Below, in pieces: positions 45,538 to 52,297 of a stretch of 64,000 nucleotides of DNA (within the stretch, counting starts at the first letter, position 1; each line of letters opens with the position of its first letter). The notes beneath the pieces were generated by a model. It ran no database searches. It worked only from the letters and a program-made list of their open reading frames with translations, and had not been told where the DNA came from. Source of the DNA: an uncultured Opitutia bacterium (GTDB lineage: Bacteria > Verrucomicrobiota > Verrucomicrobiia > Opitutales > Opitutaceae); the NCBI GenBank assembly GCA_903825285.1, contig CAIJZY010000003.1, forward strand, positions 1 to 64,000, read 5' to 3'. A program made the position numbers and the translations under genes.

Positions 45538-46854
45538 CTACTCGCGGTACGCGCGACGCGCCTGGGCATTGCCCGGGCGGATGTCGAACTTCACGTCGTC
45601 CAGCACGGGCGCGTCGGCATCCTTGACTTGCAGCTCATGCTCGGCGGCCAGCGTGACGTGGCGCAGCGTGACGCCGGTGATCGGGCTCTCGGGCAGGCCG
45701 ACGATGCGGCCGGCGTTGACCGCGCCCGTGACGCTCAGGCGCTCGATCACGACGTCGTGGATCGAGGGGATCTTCCTCGGGTTGCCGCGGAAATCGGGCC
45801 GGTTGTTGTCGACGTAATTGAGGTCGAGGAGGATCGCGGTGCCGACGCCCGTCATGCGCATGTCCTCGTACCGGACGTCCCGCACGGGCCCGCCGGCGCC
45901 GCGCATGGACTTGATGCGGATGCCGTTGTCGGTGCCCTCGAAGGAGCAGCGCCGGGCCAGCATGTGGTGCACGCCGCCCGTCGTGCCGGAGCCGATCGAG
46001 AGGCCGTGGCCGTGGCGGATCGCGCAGTCCTCGATCAGGACATTGGTGGCACCGGTCTTGATCACGATGTCGTCGTCGCCCGTGTCGATGTCGCAGCCGC
46101 GGATGATCGCGTTGACGACCGGGCCGGGGTCGATCGCGTCGGTGTTGGGGGCGTCGAACGGCGCCCGGACCTTCACGCGCTCAATGGTGAGGTCGATGAT
46201 CTCGCTGGGCACGAGGTGGAATTTCGACGAGTTGCGGAGCGTGATGTCCGCGACGAGGAGGCGCTCACAGTGGGCGATGACCACAAGGTGCGGGCGGTTG
46301 TAGACGAGCCGGCCCGGATGCGGGTCGTTGCGCGCGGCACGCTCGGACCAGGCCCACCAATGCGCCCCGCTGCCGTCGATGATGCCCGGCCCGGTCAGGG
46401 CGACGTCATGGAGGTAATGGCCGGAAATCAGCGGATCCGGCGTGTGGACGCGCGCCTCCACCTCGGCCTGCGAGTGCAGCGTGGCCGGGTCGGGCAGGCC
46501 CATCGCCTCGAAGGTCTCCGGCGCCTGGATCACGGCGCCCTCGTCGAGGTGGAGGTCCAGGCTGGAGCAGAGGGCAAACGGCTGGGTGACGTAGACCCCT
46601 TTCGGCACCACCAACTGGCCGCCACCGGCGTGGTCGACGGCGGCGATCGCGGACTTGAACGCGGAGGTGTTCATCGTGCGGCCGTCGCCGACGGCGCCGA
46701 AATCCCTGAGATTGAAGGTGCGCGCGGGAATCACCGGCCGGGCCACCGTGAAGCCCTCGGCAAGATTCACCGCCGCCGGGGAAGAATCGATCGCACCCGT
46801 GGCAGCCGTCAGCACAGCCATGCGGAAAAGGAGACGCAGGGGCAGGGTCTTCAT
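45538..46854 (-). CDS. Polygalacturonase-like glycoside hydrolase family 28
   Basis: 438 residues with a signal peptide (LPLRLLFRMAVLTAATGA). The four GH28 motifs are intact: NTD (237-239), GDDD (259-262), GHG in HGHG (281-284) and RIK (313-315), on a parallel beta-helix. It starts with FNLRDFGAVGDGRTMNTSAF, common to pectate and rhamnogalacturonan enzymes. It should cleave galacturonan-type pectin outside the cytoplasm; exo- or endo-action is not determinable. The ATG at 46854 gives the signal peptide. Confidence 0.92.
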   Translation of the reverse strand: MKTLPLRLLFRMAVLTAATGAIDSSPAAVNLAEGFTVARPVIPARTFNLRDFGAVGDGRTMNTSAFKSAIAAVDHAGGGQLVVPKGVYVTQPFALCSSLDLHLDEGAVIQAPETFEAMGLPDPATLHSQAEVEARVHTPDPLISGHYLHDVALTGPGIIDGSGAHWWAWSERAARNDPHPGRLVYNRPHLVVIAHCERLLVADITLRNSSKFHLVPSEIIDLTIERVKVRAPFDAPNTDAIDPGPVVNAIIRGCDIDTGDDDIVIKTGATNVLIEDCAIRHGHGLSIGSGTTGGVHHMLARRCSFEGTDNGIRIKSMRGAGGPVRDVRYEDMRMTGVGTAILLDLNYVDNNRPDFRGNPRKIPSIHDVVIERLSVTGAVNAGRIVGLPESPITGVTLRHVTLAAEHELQVKDADAPVLDDVKFDIRPGNAQARRAYRE

Positions 46855-46904
46855 GATGCGGCCATGCTGGCGCCTCCCGCGCGTCCGGGCGAGCGGGAAC
46901 GCGC

Positions 46905-48209
46905 TCAGGCCGCCGCGGGCGCACGCCCGAGCAGGCCGCGCAGTCCGTCCCGCGTGAACCGGGCCAGGAAGACCAGCAGGCAGCCGAAGAACGCCCAGGT
47001 CAGCGGCTGCTCGGCGAGGAAGCTCCACTTGAGGCCGAGGCGCAGGGTGTCGGGCGTGGCGTGGTCGCGGCAGGCGATGATGGTCCAGGTGTAGAGTGTA
47101 TCCAGCCAGAGCACGGCCAGCAGGAGCACGCGGGTGAGGGCGGCCAGCCGCCGCGCGGGCGCGGGCGCCGCGGCGTCCCCCGCGAGCCGCCAGAGAAACG
47201 GCGCCAGCCAGACCGCGAACACCCAGCGGTAGGCGAAGTTGGCGCTCGTGAAGAAGCAGCCCGTCAGGAGCACCGCCCCGAGGACAAAGTGCAGCCAGGA
47301 ATCGGACTGGTCGGTTGCGGGCGTCCACCCCTCCAGCCGCGGCGAATGCCACGCCCAGGTGAAGATCACCCCGCCGCCGGCGAGGGCGAGCAGCGTCGGG
47401 GCCATGCCCGTCCAGCCCAGCGTGGTCAGGCCGCTGGCCGCGCCGAAGCTCATCCAACCCGAGGGATGCGGCGCGAGCGGCCCGAAGAGCGCGAGGTCGG
47501 GCGCCACGCTCAGGGCCGTGGCCACCAGCAGCACGACGCCGAGGAACACGGACCAACGTCGTTCACCGGGTGCGGCTGGTGTGAGCAGGACGAGGCCCGC
47601 CGCGGCGGGATAATATTTCAGCCCGGCCGCCAGCGCGACCAGCACCGGAGCCAGCAGCCGCACTCCGCGTGAGGTGTGACGCAGGCAGGGAACGAGCGGG
47701 GTCAGCACCAGGAAGATCACGAGGTCGTTGTTGGCCCGGTCGAGCGCGAGCAGGATGGGCGGGGCCACGAGCAGCAGGAAATAGTAGCAGCCCTGCCGGA
47801 GGCTCCCGGGCCGCAGCGCCCGCAGCGTGGCGAGCCAGAACAGTCCGACCACCAGCGGGCCGAGCCAGGTGATGTCCGCCCGGGTCAGCCCAAGATGCCG
47901 CAGCTCCAGCCACCAGTGCGAGTACACGTGCGGCCGGCCGAAGTAATCGAGGGGATTGGGCGTGTAGGGATTGAGTCCCTGCCTGACGGCGTCACCCGAG
48001 GCGAGCAGGGCGGAGATGTCGGCAAACCAGATGGGGTAGTGCTGGACGCCGGCATACCAGAGCAGCCCGGGCTGCAGATAAAAGGTGAGGTAGACCGCCG
48101 CGGTGGCCAGTCCGAGCAGGACCCAGGGCCAGGGCGACGGCAGGGCAGGGCGCGGCGCCGGCAGGGTCGGGCTTCGAGGTTTCCGGGTGCGGCGCATGGC
48201 TTGACTCAC
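46905..48209 (-). CDS. DUF2029/GT87-like membrane protein
   Basis: 434 residues, about ten membrane spans. Starts GTG at 48209 or ATG at 48197. Glycosyltransferase-family-87-like pattern: ADISALLASGDAVRQGLNPY in the first loop, LLALDRANNDLVIFLVLTPL, and VLVALAAGLKYYPAAAGLVL. Members such as mycobacterial PimE are polyprenyl-phosphate-mannose mannosyltransferases, so a role in envelope glycan synthesis is possible, but the catalytic residue is not verified. It lies 50 bases upstream of the GH28 gene on the same strand. Confidence 0.8.
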   Translation of the reverse strand: MSQAMRRTRKPRSPTLPAPRPALPSPWPWVLLGLATAAVYLTFYLQPGLLWYAGVQHYPIWFADISALLASGDAVRQGLNPYTPNPLDYFGRPHVYSHWWLELRHLGLTRADITWLGPLVVGLFWLATLRALRPGSLRQGCYYFLLLVAPPILLALDRANNDLVIFLVLTPLVPCLRHTSRGVRLLAPVLVALAAGLKYYPAAAGLVLLTPAAPGERRWSVFLGVVLLVATALSVAPDLALFGPLAPHPSGWMSFGAASGLTTLGWTGMAPTLLALAGGGVIFTWAWHSPRLEGWTPATDQSDSWLHFVLGAVLLTGCFFTSANFAYRWVFAVWLAPFLWRLAGDAAAPAPARRLAALTRVLLLAVLWLDTLYTWTIIACRDHATPDTLRLGLKWSFLAEQPLTWAFFGCLLVFLARFTRDGLRGLLGRAPAAA

Positions 48210-48332
48210 GTTTCCCGGGGCGGGCGACGGGTGGCAAGAGCGCAGTGCGTGCCGGCGCAGGCTTTGGCCTCAGGTTTCGGGCGACTGCGCCGATGGAGAA
48301 GCAACCCGCTCTTCCCGGCCGGGTGCGGTTTC

Positions 48333-49532
48333 ATGCGCAAGAATCCCCTCGAGTACTTTCGCACGCTCGGCCTCAGCCCGGGCGCCTCCGCCGCTGACAT
48401 CAAGCAGGCCTACCGCCGGCTGATCCAGCGCTGGCATCCTGACCAGTTCAAGGCGGGTTCGCTCATGCAGACGACCGCGGAGGACATGTCGAAGGAGATC
48501 AACGAGGCGTACGAGCAGCTGTACAAGCGGCAGCTCCACAAGCGCTTCTTGTCCCAGCGGACGCCAAAGTTTTCGAAGCCCCCGTTCGCCGCGGCACGGG
48601 GTTCGGTCCGCCGCGCGCCGGCCGCGGACGCGCCGCCACGGAAAGCGCGGCCCGCGCGTCACCTCGCCCGCTGGCCCTGGATCCGCATCGTCGCAGCCAC
48701 CGGTGCCGCCCTGGCCGCATTTGCCCTCTGGCCCAGCCTGCCTTCACTCCGGCCGGCATGGCCGAAGTCCCAGCCGGAACGGACCGAGCTCGCCCACGGC
48801 CGCCAGGCACCACGCGCGCCGCGCCCAGCGACCCCCGATACTGGTCAGGTCGCAACGCAGGCTGACGTCACTGCCGTCGCAAACCCGCAGCCGCCTTCTC
48901 CGCGCACGAGCGCGCCGCCGCCGGGCGTGGTTCGGGACGAACTGGTTGGAAACATCTCCCTGCTGTCGTCGCCATCGGCCGAGCGAGTGGGGTTGACCGC
49001 GTGGCCGGTGATGGAGTCGCCGCGCTGGGTGGGGGCCGAACGCTGGCCGATGCCGAGCATCGGCCCAGAGCCGCGGTTGACGGCGGGGGACGCTGCGATC
49101 TTTGCCGACACGTCGTCCTTGCTTCGCACCTTTGAGCTGGGTGACTCGCGGGCGCTGGTGTTGGCGGTGCAGGGGGCGCCGGATGACGCCGGCGACACCA
49201 TCCTTCGCTATGGCTCGTCGGTCGTGTACCTGGCCGATGGCCGGGTCTCGGGCTGGTCCGACGGCGTGCCGCGCCTGCACGTGCGCGCGCTGCCCAGCCT
49301 CGATTACGACCTGCTCGCCAGCTTCACCTTGGGCTCGTCGCGGGCCGAGGTGGCGCGGCTGCAGGGACGGCCCACGGACAATGTGCTGGGCGCGTTTCTT
49401 TACGGTTCGTCCGTGATCAGGTTTGAGTCGGATCGCGTGAGCGGATGGCTCGAGGGCTCGGATTCGCTGCGGGTTCCGTTGCTTCAAACCTTCCAACGGA
49501 GCGACTTGGACGAGTCTCTGCTCCGCCAATAG
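48333..49532 (+). CDS. Membrane-anchored J-domain protein with duplicated C-terminal motif
   Basis: 399 residues. An N-terminal DnaJ domain (FRTLGLSPGASAADIKQAYR, HPD at 35-37) is followed by a basic linker and a single span at 114-136 (PWIRIVAATGAALAAFALWP). A long Pro-rich stretch leads to two copies of one motif: 267-309 (FELGDSRALVLAVQGAPDD ... YGSSVVYLADGRVSGW) and 331-373 (FTLGSSRAEVARLQGRPTD ... YGSSVIRFESDRVSGW). The latter resembles SmpA/OmlA/BamE-like folds (LG.xxxEV...Q/LG.P). The topology puts J and repeats on opposite sides. Function is unknown. Confidence 0.85.
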   Translation: MRKNPLEYFRTLGLSPGASAADIKQAYRRLIQRWHPDQFKAGSLMQTTAEDMSKEINEAYEQLYKRQLHKRFLSQRTPKFSKPPFAAARGSVRRAPAADAPPRKARPARHLARWPWIRIVAATGAALAAFALWPSLPSLRPAWPKSQPERTELAHGRQAPRAPRPATPDTGQVATQADVTAVANPQPPSPRTSAPPPGVVRDELVGNISLLSSPSAERVGLTAWPVMESPRWVGAERWPMPSIGPEPRLTAGDAAIFADTSSLLRTFELGDSRALVLAVQGAPDDAGDTILRYGSSVVYLADGRVSGWSDGVPRLHVRALPSLDYDLLASFTLGSSRAEVARLQGRPTDNVLGAFLYGSSVIRFESDRVSGWLEGSDSLRVPLLQTFQRSDLDESLLRQ

Positions 49533-49771
49533 GGCCCGGCGGACGGTTTTGGGAAGGAGAGTAGCCGCCTTAATAGGGCCTATCGCGCCGAGGCTTGGCC
49601 CCGGTTTTTCCGAGGGAAACCCGGGTGGCGGGGAATTGTCGCCGGTCGTGGGATACAGCGCCGATGCCGACGTTGGGTTGACGCCTGTGGGGCGCGGTGA
49701 CATTCACAATCAACGGTATCCCGATTTCAAAAACATTACCTCCCTAGGAAAATCGAGATGCCCTCCCCATC

Positions 49772-50350
49772 ATGAAAGACACCGAAGTCGACATCCCGAA
49801 AAAAACGCCGAAGGCGACCATTGTGATCATCGTCCTCGTCCTCGCGGTGCTGGCCCTCGTGGCCGCCTGCATCAGCCTGGGCAAGGACAGCCAGCGCTCG
49901 GAGCAGCAGGCCCAGGCGGCGATTGACCAAAGCAAGGCCGACGTGGCCAAGGCCAACACCGAACTCGATGCCGCGAGGGCCGAGGACCTGACCCTCCGCA
50001 AGCAACTGGGCGAGGCCAAGATCGCGACCGCCAAGGTGCAGCGCGACCTGGAGGATGCGAAGGCCAACACGGCCAGCTTCCAGAACCAGATCGCCGAGGC
50101 CAAGGCGGCGACGGCGGCGGTGCAGTCGAAGCTCGAGGAGGCCAATGCCCGCTACGGCGAGATCATGGTCCAGAACGAGGAGTTGAAGGCGTCGACCGAT
50201 GCGATCCGCAACCAGCTCGAGGATTCCCGCAACAACGGCATCGCGCTCCAGAAGCAGATCGAGGATCTCAACCGGAACATCAGCCGCCTGGAAATTCGCG
50301 CCCAACGCGCGGAGTCCGAGGTGGCGACGATGAAGCGGAACCAGAAGTAA
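49772..50350 (+). CDS. Membrane-anchored coiled-coil protein
   Basis: 192 residues. A short acidic/basic start (MKDTEVDIPKKTPK) is followed by one span (ATIVIIVLVLAVLALVAACI) and then a long coiled coil of Ala/Lys/Glu/Gln heptads from about 40 to the end. No domain is recognised. Orientation suggests the coil is outside the cytoplasm. The 239-base gap before it (49533-49771) has no gene but holds a hairpin-like stretch near 49600-49625. Confidence 0.75.
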   Translation: MKDTEVDIPKKTPKATIVIIVLVLAVLALVAACISLGKDSQRSEQQAQAAIDQSKADVAKANTELDAARAEDLTLRKQLGEAKIATAKVQRDLEDAKANTASFQNQIAEAKAATAAVQSKLEEANARYGEIMVQNEELKASTDAIRNQLEDSRNNGIALQKQIEDLNRNISRLEIRAQRAESEVATMKRNQK

Positions 50351-50375
50351 GGTCCGCCTTCCGTTGTCAGGTCAG

Positions 50376-50398
50376 CCCGGGCCGCGAATCGGCCCGGG
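50376..50398 (+). other. Perfect hairpin after the coiled-coil gene
   Basis: A 9-bp stem (cccgggccg/cggcccggg, 50376-50384 with 50390-50398) and 5-base loop, 26 bases after the stop. No T-run follows, so it is not a canonical terminator. Confidence 0.5.
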
Positions 50399-50456
50399 TA
50401 CGCGTGGCCGCATGCTTGGGCTAAGCTTTGGCCCGGCCGATCCGATAAGGGAGGGC

Positions 50457-50873
50457 ATGAACCGAGGCCTTTCCTGGCGGCACTGGCTGCTCCTGCTGGT
50501 GGTCACCGGCGCCGCGCGCGGCGCGGACCGCTGGGCGCAGCTGCGCCTGGGCATGACGACCAACGAGGCCGTCAGCGCACTCGGCGAGCCGCTCGTGCGG
50601 AGCGCCGGCCGGGGCTTCGAGCTGTGGATCTACGACCACGACGCCGAGGTGCTGTTTTTCGGGGACCTGGTTGGCTGGACCACCCCCGGCACAGGGCCAT
50701 CGGCCCGCCACTCGGCGGACGTCTGGCAGGCGAACCAGGGCCAGGACGATTTCCGCGCCGTGCTGGCACGCCTGCCGGCCCCGCGGTCCCGGCCGGCCCG
50801 CCGCGCAGCCACGGCTCCAGCGGCGGAGCAGCGTGCGATCGCCTGGCGGCCCGCGCTGCGTTTCCGTCCCTGA
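50457..50873 (+). CDS. Secreted SmpA/BamE-like protein
   Basis: 138 residues from the ATG at 50457, chosen because a purine-rich ribosome site (AAGGGAGGG, 50447-50455) lies just before it. A signal peptide (GLSWRHWLLLLVVTGAARGA) precedes WAQLRLGMTTNEAVSALGEP and ELWIYDHDAEVLFFGDLVGW, the 'LGMT..EV...G.P ... Y' pattern of SmpA/OmlA (BamE-like) proteins. The tail is Arg/Ala/Pro-rich. It shares the motif type with the repeats of the J-domain protein 1-2 kb upstream. Role unknown; no lipobox is visible. Confidence 0.75.
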   Translation: MNRGLSWRHWLLLLVVTGAARGADRWAQLRLGMTTNEAVSALGEPLVRSAGRGFELWIYDHDAEVLFFGDLVGWTTPGTGPSARHSADVWQANQGQDDFRAVLARLPAPRSRPARRAATAPAAEQRAIAWRPALRFRP

Positions 50874-50950
50874 CCGGGCTGGATGATCGCGCGATTCATG
50901 GTTTACGCTGCGGGGCCGGGTCGATTGCTTGGGGCATCCCGCCCATTCGC

Positions 50951-51334
50951 ATGGCTGACTCCATCCCGTATTTCCGTCTCGCGCTGAACCTCCCGCATGC
51001 CGGACGCATCGCGCGGCGGATCCTGCACCTGGTGCCGGCGGAGGACGCCTCGAGCGAGGCGCTCCGCCAGACCGCGCTGAGCCTGGAGGCGCTGCTCGCG
51101 CCCTATATGGATCTCGACGACAACCCCGGCGGCACGCTGGCCGTGCGGGTCCGGGACCAGGCGGCGGTGCTGGGCCGGAAGCTCGTGGACCAGATCGAGC
51201 GTGCAAAGGCCGGCCACGACCGGCTTGGCCAGTGCGTGCGCAATCTCTTCGAGTGCCTGGAGCTCGGCCAGGAGGGCGCCGCGATCTCGCTCCGCGCCGG
51301 TGAAGATCCCAAGTCTTTCCAGCGGCCGTTCTAA
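50951..51334 (+). CDS. Hypothetical protein
   Basis: 127 residues, unrecognised. Mostly helical: FRLALNLPHAGRIARRILHL, TALSLEALLAPYMDLDDNPG, VRDQAAVLGRKLVDQIERAK. No signal peptide or membrane span. It is followed after 30 bases by the AEC transporter gene on the same strand. Confidence 0.7.
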   Translation: MADSIPYFRLALNLPHAGRIARRILHLVPAEDASSEALRQTALSLEALLAPYMDLDDNPGGTLAVRVRDQAAVLGRKLVDQIERAKAGHDRLGQCVRNLFECLELGQEGAAISLRAGEDPKSFQRPF

Positions 51335-51364
51335 GCCGCGCAGTCGCGACTCGGCGATTTTTCC

Positions 51365-52297
51365 ATGCACATCCTCAACGTCCTCGCCCCGGTGTTCCTG
51401 CTGATCGCGGTCGGGGCCGGGCTGCAGCGCAGCCGGTTTGTCTCACCGGGCTTCCTGCTGGAGGCCAATCGCCTGTCCTACTGGCTGGGTCTGCCGGCGC
51501 TGCTTTTCTCGCAGCTGGTAGGCTCGTTTCACGAGCTTGGCGGGGCCAAGCTGATGCTGGGCGCGATGCTCACGGCGACGGCTCTCGTGATGGCGGTGGG
51601 CTACGTCGCCGCGTGGCTGCTGCGCGTGCCGGGCGGCGTGGTCGGCACGTTCGTGCAGGGCTGCTTCCGCGGCAACCTGGCCTTCGTCGGCCTCCCGATC
51701 ATCTTCTCGCTGCCGGACCGGCCCCTCGCCTGGGGCGTGTCCACGCGCACGGCGGCGGTCCTGACCGTCGCACCCATGCTGGTCTGCTACAACGTGGGTG
51801 GCGTGGTGGTGCTCCTGATCAGCCAGCAGCGCCTCGGCTGGGGCATGCTCCGCCCGCTGCTGCGCCAGCTGGTGACGAACCCGCCGCTGCTCGCCACGCT
51901 GGCGGGCATCGGGTGCGCGCTGGCCGGCTGGTCGCTGCCGCCGGCGCTCGACAAGACCTTCAACGCCCTCGGCGACATGGCGCTGCCGCTCGGCCTGCTC
52001 GGCGTGGGCGGCTCCCTCGTCACGGCGGAATTCGGCGGCCGGTGGCGGCTCCCGCTGTCCTGCGCGCTGGTGAAGGCCGTGGCCTCACCTCTGCTCGGCT
52101 GGCTCGTGGGCCGATGGTGCGGGCTGGGCGGGACCGAGCTCGCCATCGTGGTGATCTTCATGGCGTGCCCGACGGCGATCATCTCCTACACCATGGCGCT
52201 GGAGCTGAAGGGCGACGGGCCGCTCGCCTCCGGCGCGATCGTGCTGAGCGTGCTCACCTCACTGGTCTCGCTGGCCGTGGTGGTCGGGGCCATGTGA
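51365..52297 (+). CDS. AEC family transporter (auxin efflux carrier type)
   Basis: 310 residues with about ten membrane spans. Signatures: NVLAPVFLLIAVGAGLQRSR, NRLSYWLGLPALLFSQLVGS, GCFRGNLAFVGLPI and the C-terminal CPTAIISYTMALELKGD. AEC proteins in bacteria carry malonate, malate or other small acids; substrate not predictable. Convergent with dxs (12-base gap). Confidence 0.9.
   Translation: MHILNVLAPVFLLIAVGAGLQRSRFVSPGFLLEANRLSYWLGLPALLFSQLVGSFHELGGAKLMLGAMLTATALVMAVGYVAAWLLRVPGGVVGTFVQGCFRGNLAFVGLPIIFSLPDRPLAWGVSTRTAAVLTVAPMLVCYNVGGVVVLLISQQRLGWGMLRPLLRQLVTNPPLLATLAGIGCALAGWSLPPALDKTFNALGDMALPLGLLGVGGSLVTAEFGGRWRLPLSCALVKAVASPLLGWLVGRWCGLGGTELAIVVIFMACPTAIISYTMALELKGDGPLASGAIVLSVLTSLVSLAVVVGAM

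Follow-up and report, generated by a model that had tools for sequence, protein, structure and literature searches.

A J-domain protein with a predicted membrane helix and duplicated BLIP/BamE-like modules in an uncultured Opitutaceae bacterium

The window analysed here, a stretch of 64,000 nucleotides from an uncultured Opitutia bacterium of the Opitutaceae, encodes a protein (P0001) in which a J domain is followed by one predicted membrane helix and by two tandem modules distantly related to BamE. It is read as a variant of the class C membrane J proteins in which the ectodomain is BLIP/BamE-like; among the titles listed, which do not include the Barriot et al. 2020 survey of bacterial J proteins, none joins a J domain to a BamE/BLIP-like domain. 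On balance, the best explanation of the whole is a single-pass co-chaperone that positions DnaK by what its ectodomain binds. The features of the gene are as follows.

48333..49532, + strand: P0001, J-domain/membrane helix/two-module protein, 399 aa (ORF, Pfam, orthologues)
48351..48533, + strand: J domain, residues 7-67, with HPD at residues 35-37 (Pfam)
48687..48743, + strand: one predicted membrane helix, residues 119-137, with its basic side facing the J domain (hydropathy, charge)
49116..49301, + strand: module 1, BLIP/BamE-like (self-alignment, profiles, fold model)
49308..49493, + strand: module 2, BLIP/BamE-like (self-alignment, profiles, fold model)

The J domain matches Pfam DnaJ (PF00226) over residues 7-67 at 48.9 bits, against a cut-off of 27.8, and its HPD is intact, as an earlier note made from the letters of the window had reported. 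PF00226 is the only Pfam family matched by P0001 at E <= 1, the zinc finger and DnaJ C-terminal domain being absent, and in NCBIfam it matches J-domain models, far under their cut-offs. Judged by its sequence, P0001 is therefore a class C protein, with an HPD-bearing J domain as the sole part in common with DnaJ. The spacing from HPD to AYE, counted by eye, is 21 residues, versus 17 in the DnaJ of the same genome.

The single transmembrane helix described in the same note is recovered near residues 119-137, with a hydropathy of 1.55 (1.38 to 1.84 in four orthologues); it is moderately hydrophobic, and hence predicted rather than certain. The 30 residues preceding it carry a net charge of +8 or +9 in P0001 and the four orthologues, and this basic side, which lies towards the J domain, suggests an N-in, C-out topology. 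A long Pro/Ala-rich linker separates the helix from the tandem repeats. These begin at residues 266 and 330 and span about 52 residues each (the modules about 60 aa), close to the two motif copies noticed earlier at 267-309 and 331-373. Their local BLOSUM62 self-alignment scores 109, a value reached by none of 1000 shuffles (maximum 47). No direct repeat was found at the DNA level in the P0001 gene, so the duplication is old, and modules 1 and 2 hold distinct signatures across the aligned orthologues.

The kinship of the modules rests on a chain of profile matches. A profile built from the window-type repeats only (A2) detects a lipoprotein with two modules (L067) at E 3.5e-8, and this protein matches Pfam BamE (PF04355) at 47.2 bits, above the cut-off of 23.2. 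The A2 matches include three lipoproteins (by eye) from other families of the class (L067, L068 and L069); in six of ten genomes (L070 to L075) the match is to another protein, which in L070 is a polynucleotide phosphorylase (by eye) and in L071 to L075 is a frame of similar length to L070 matched over the same part of the profile. Compared directly with BamE, P0001 gives no match at E <= 1 in the Pfam scan; one of six window-type repeats matches, at E 0.11, and all lie under the cut-off, while three of 16 sequences in a wider set (A4) match, the best at 3.3e-7. Kinship is borne out through the chain from A2 to L067 to BamE, with the modules of P0001 themselves below the BamE cut-off.

The A4 set, built without G724, G802, G762 and G766 (found later), has matches in 15 of 384 genomes of the class. 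Among the proteins read, L067, L068, L069, L132, L133, L134 and L138 are secreted or are lipoproteins and have between one and five modules; the others are an anchored protein (L136), proteins in which a module accompanies a thioredoxin-like domain (L135, L140 and, later, L158) and a further J protein (L131, from G724). L137 yielded no frame through the motif filter. An order-level search gives matches in 13 of 372 genomes, the strong ones being those known already; L159 and L161 yielded no frame through the filter. A signal peptide, often with a lipobox (by eye), precedes the modules in L067, L068, L069, L132 and L133, and a plasmid protein of Paenibacillus peoriae (WP_060628934.1, L149:1969-3366) has three modules, a membrane helix (by eye) and an unassigned N-terminal part. 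Because the modules elsewhere stand behind signal peptides or a membrane helix, they are most likely extracytoplasmic. Paenibacillus has no outer membrane, and the presence of the module there means that it is not specific to outer-membrane assembly.

Two arrangements among these relatives are recorded for their own sake. One secreted protein (L134:1387-3180, in G766) has five modules in tandem and ends in a repetitive tail. Three others (L135:1420-2181, L140:397-1791 and L158:985-1698) are secreted and join a BamE-like module to an apparent thioredoxin-like domain (by eye).

Structural comparison points in the same direction. A sequence search of the PDB gives nothing credible with A2, and with A4 it gives Bartonella BamE (E 0.005) and OmlA (E 0.033). 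A fold model of the two modules, made from 3 sequences (pLDDT 55, pTM 0.38), predicts helix-strand-strand-strand in each repeat. Foldseek finds no match to this model at E <= 0.001, and its top five ranks hold BLIP, a putative BLIP and BamE. In a second fold comparison most of the best 30 rows belong to the BLIP-like superfamily, with Z <= 6.1; BamE, BLIP, OsmE and DUF4309 proteins make up most of the top fold matches. A modelled fold match of this kind proves little by itself. The model and the fold rankings are each weak alone; with the sequence chain added, they make the modules members of the BLIP-like superfamily. The modules are accordingly assigned, from profile searches with a low-confidence fold model in support, to the BLIP/BamE superfamily of extracytoplasmic domains; they are distant kin of BamE by the sequence chain, and probably by fold as well. 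The domains of the BLIP-like superfamily are described in PMC2954215 as periplasmic and probably inhibitory, with tandem copies in BLIP and DUF2874.

The J gene is rare and conserved. Matches to P0001 are present in 55 of 57 relatives' genomes (its own included), and extend past the end of the J domain only in G000 (the window), G001 and G033; the other matches inspected are mostly of DnaJ or CbpA type (by eye). With a profile of the two-repeat region, seven of 252 family genomes match when at most 15 candidates per genome are scored. An intact J domain, helix and both modules are found in five of the 252: the window genome, G001 (on two contigs), G033, G450 and G469. G461 has a gene of modules only (L082:1486-1878), the first one shortened and with no J domain within the surrounding 16 kb, and this is probably a remnant of the J protein. 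Between P0001 and its four orthologues, dN is 0.37-0.58 and dS 1.12-1.28, the latter near saturation; with dN well under dS in all four comparisons, P0001 is under purifying selection. Its intact occurrence in five of 252 family genomes counts against a housekeeping role. In a contig scan the P0001 query detects no relative, and a further profile (A3) detects two contigs that correspond to G001 and G033. A plasmid search with P0001 matches 64 records, none over 80% of its length, and among the matches listed (15 of the 64) all are to the J domain; the module of G377 has no plasmid match, and the modules of G724 match the one Paenibacillus protein.

The same architecture recurs in two further proteins. 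That of G377 (L083) has a J domain, a helix of hydropathy 2.25 and one module, and that of G724 (L131) has a J domain, a helix of hydropathy 2.18 and two modules; both J domains are clearly unlike the window type. By eye, the HPD-to-AYE spacing is 21 residues in the window type and in the G377/G724 type, as against 17 in DnaJ and most CbpA rows, with two CbpA rows at 19 and 20. When 31 J domains are placed in a tree, the 10 that belong to neither DnaJ nor CbpA separate from the remaining 21 (support 98/96), a grouping made uncertain by long branches. The helix was checked in nine of these ten proteins (all but that of G037). The G012 protein (L009, 203 aa) combines a J domain of this kind with a helix (by eye) and lacks a module, and the membrane J protein of G027 (L011:1175-2647) has an outer part with other repeats (FGMS motif, by eye) and no BamE match. 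We read these proteins as a membrane J-protein lineage in which the outer part can be exchanged. The feature that generalises is the J-helix-module fusion, not the gene cluster.

The cytoplasmic partner is suggested by the chaperone complement of the genome. The window genome has one full-length Hsp70 (a frame of 650 aa, 881 bits), the other match reaching 41 bits over 104 of 599 positions, and a PF00226 search of this genome (completeness 96%) finds two J proteins, DnaJ and P0001. With one full-length Hsp70 and two J proteins, the J domain of P0001 most likely serves DnaK. P0001 would then be a class C J-domain co-chaperone with a single pass through the inner membrane. The J domain, at the N-terminus and in the cytoplasm, would recruit and stimulate DnaK, and the Pro/Ala-rich linker outside the membrane would bear the two BLIP/BamE-like modules. 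These modules may bind an envelope partner, which would concentrate DnaK at the partner's sites on the inner membrane; sites of secretion, membrane-protein assembly or cell-wall assembly are candidates. Given a J domain inside and modules outside, the simplest function would be to hold DnaK near an envelope partner. The gene neighbours differ between genomes, and gene context names no binding partner.

The main rival is signalling across the membrane, in which the modules would sense the state of the envelope and alter how active or how clustered the J domain is, and DnaK would remodel a cytoplasmic regulator. The layout of sensor, helix and effector is that of many receptors, and there is a precedent in the membrane J protein DjlA, which according to PMC11709261 can remodel, on the cytoplasmic side, how membrane signalling proteins contact one another, loosening the contact between IgaA and RcsD. 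However, no regulator recurs beside the J gene: the G001 copy has a hybrid sensor kinase (by eye) upstream, but the copies in the window, G033 and G450 do not. There is also no sign of a ligand, and signalling is rather unlikely.

Positioning of DnaK by a bound ectodomain is the reading retained for P0001. It can be extended, tentatively and with more doubt than confidence, to a family of transmembrane co-chaperones that combine a cytoplasmic J domain with exchangeable envelope-binding ectodomains, consisting of one or two BLIP/BamE-like modules or of other repeats as in G027, so that the state of the envelope would decide where, or whether, DnaK acts on the inner membrane. Recognition of clients by DjlA is stated as unknown in PMC11709261. 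The duplicated, defined outer modules of P0001 offer a handle on client choice, with the ectodomain as bait and J activity compared with and without the modules.

P0001 differs from the nearest known membrane J proteins. In DjlA of E. coli a short periplasmic part precedes a helix near the N-terminus, and a TerB-like domain and, at the C-terminus, the J domain follow; in P0001 the J domain is the N-terminal part and the helix has about 260 residues after it. P0001 scores 37.7 against the NCBIfam DjlA model, with a cut-off of 162, and has no TerB match; its layout is not that of DjlA. DjlB and DjlC resemble P0001 in having the membrane anchor after the J domain, but are described as tail-anchored, with HPE in place of HPD, and as working with HscC (PMC8215388). 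P0001 has HPD, about 260 residues past the helix and one full-length Hsp70 in its genome, and does not belong with them.

On the outer side, the two tandem modules are reminiscent of the beta-lactamase inhibitor BLIP, which is likewise built of two (PMC2954215). They differ from BamE/SmpA_OmlA (PF04355) in scoring below the cut-off, in being joined to a J domain and in having a relative in Paenibacillus. The extracellular part of CopD from Streptococcus pneumoniae is also a tandem pair from the BLIP-like superfamily, but of PepSY rather than BamE-like domains, and the portion of PMC10653890 that describes it mentions no J domain.

Two genes follow that of P0001 on the same strand.

49772..50350, + strand: P0002, anchored coiled-coil protein, 192 aa (hydropathy, Pfam, relatives' loci)
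50457..50873, + strand: P0003, small BamE-like protein, 138 aa, with a signal peptide by eye (Pfam, homologues)

A TTG start at 50364 is possible for P0003, which has one BamE-like motif and no cysteine. BamE is an outer-membrane lipoprotein with a lipobox cysteine. P0003 differs from it in lacking that cysteine and in falling under the Pfam BamE cut-off (12.7 bits against 23.2). Among its homologues, 14 of 19 match BamE at E <= 1 (best 1.8e-4), these being the 19 of 31 listed relatives that were picked for a clear compact start and aligned as A6; against the PDB the family profile has BamE as its best match, at E 0.014 over just 24 positions. A fold predicted from the single sequence of P0003 has a pLDDT of 43.5 and is set aside. 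Direct pairwise kinship between P0003 and the repeats of P0001 was considered and is rejected: 635 of 1000 shuffles score as high as the single pair, which is not significant, and P0003 alone against A4 gives an hhalign probability of 1%. Family against family, hhalign gives E 1.8e-4 and a probability of 48%. The description of the third protein as secreted and BamE-like, with a motif akin to the repeats, therefore stands for the signal peptide (by eye), for the superfamily in common with the outer part of P0001 and for the comparison of families, and fails for the single pair and at the Pfam cut-off. One other protein of the window genome exceeds the BamE cut-off, a secreted BamE-like protein at C32 (25.0 bits, L152:1117-1698).

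It is conceivable, but improbable, that P0001 and P0003 form a two-part system, in which P0003 would bind in the periplasm, either to the modules or to what they bind. In G450, which belongs to a different genus from the window's, a P0003 homologue on the same strand ends 78 bases before the start of the J gene, and in the window the two are one gene apart; the chance of such adjacency for a single copy is about 0.0007, assuming 3000 genes, and the module families are related. However, two genomes with the J gene, G001 and G469, give no match to P0003 at E <= 0.001, and G033 has two weak matches only (E 4e-5 and 7e-4), on other contigs. A J-domain scan of 35 loci around P0003 relatives is positive for G450 alone, these loci spanning 1.5 kb on each side and the window's own leaving out its J domain. 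P0003 homologues are found in 41 of 252 family genomes, mostly without the J gene; three of these genomes have an intact J gene, one of them with a weak match. The chance of an overlap of three is 0.03 with the window counted and 0.12 without it (two of four), and a stringent, hand-picked P0003 list of 33 genomes gives an overlap of two, with a chance of 0.13. Given the G450 adjacency a loose link between the two genes is possible, and P0003 is a scattered gene that may at most be an occasional partner of the J protein.

The coiled-coil protein has its own conserved setting. P0002 was correctly noted as an anchored protein downstream of the J gene, its N-terminal helix being strong (hydropathy 3.33). 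It has matches in 24 of 57 relatives, a count inflated by coiled coils. Of the genus relatives, the six that match P0002 best (G001, G003, G005, G007, G008 and G009) all have a homologue of window gene 44887 upstream of the P0002 gene, and none has a J gene beside it, by a crude gene finder that missed the J gene of the window. A counterpart of window gene 50953 (by eye) adjoins the P0002 gene in G005, G008 and G009, without a J gene, and the permease of window 51365 is near it in G001 and G008. P0002 is a genus-conserved neighbour and probably lies outside the function of the J protein. Against the defence models of PADLOC, P0002 matches eight at E <= 0.01, which we take to be coiled-coil likeness, and P0001 and P0003 match no model at that threshold.

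These loci bear on the question of a three-gene system. The earlier note had read the J, coiled-coil and BamE-like proteins as a single envelope assembly or quality-control system, and had set that reading against the gene order of related genomes. The three genes are neighbours on one strand in the window, the J and BamE-like genes adjoin in G450, and in G007 the P0002 gene is followed by a P0003 homologue. However, among the five genomes with an intact J gene the order J, coiled-coil, BamE-like occurs in the window only. The other four (G001, G033, G450 and G469) have other genes downstream of the J gene, the G469 contig ending upstream of it, and none of them has all three together; the neighbours that the coiled-coil gene retains within the genus are different ones, the intergenic gaps are 239 and 106 bases (the second 13 if P0003 starts at 50364), and the counts of 41 and five genomes overlap no more than stated above. 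A three-gene cassette is rejected on this gene order and a three-gene system is unlikely; as an explanation of P0001, the single assembly or quality-control system is very improbable. The two downstream genes are probably separate from the J protein. Promoter-like and terminator-like sites over 48100-51400 show no excess over shuffles.

Two smaller observations concern the same region. The helix of P0002 ends in a lipobox-like VAAC, and the cysteine is absent at that place in the homologues of G007 and G005. The content of window 45538-49532, which lies between genes 44887 and 49772 (both genus-conserved), varies among genomes; here it consists of a polygalacturonase-like gene and a gene for a multi-span membrane protein (both on the minus strand, by eye), followed by the J gene.
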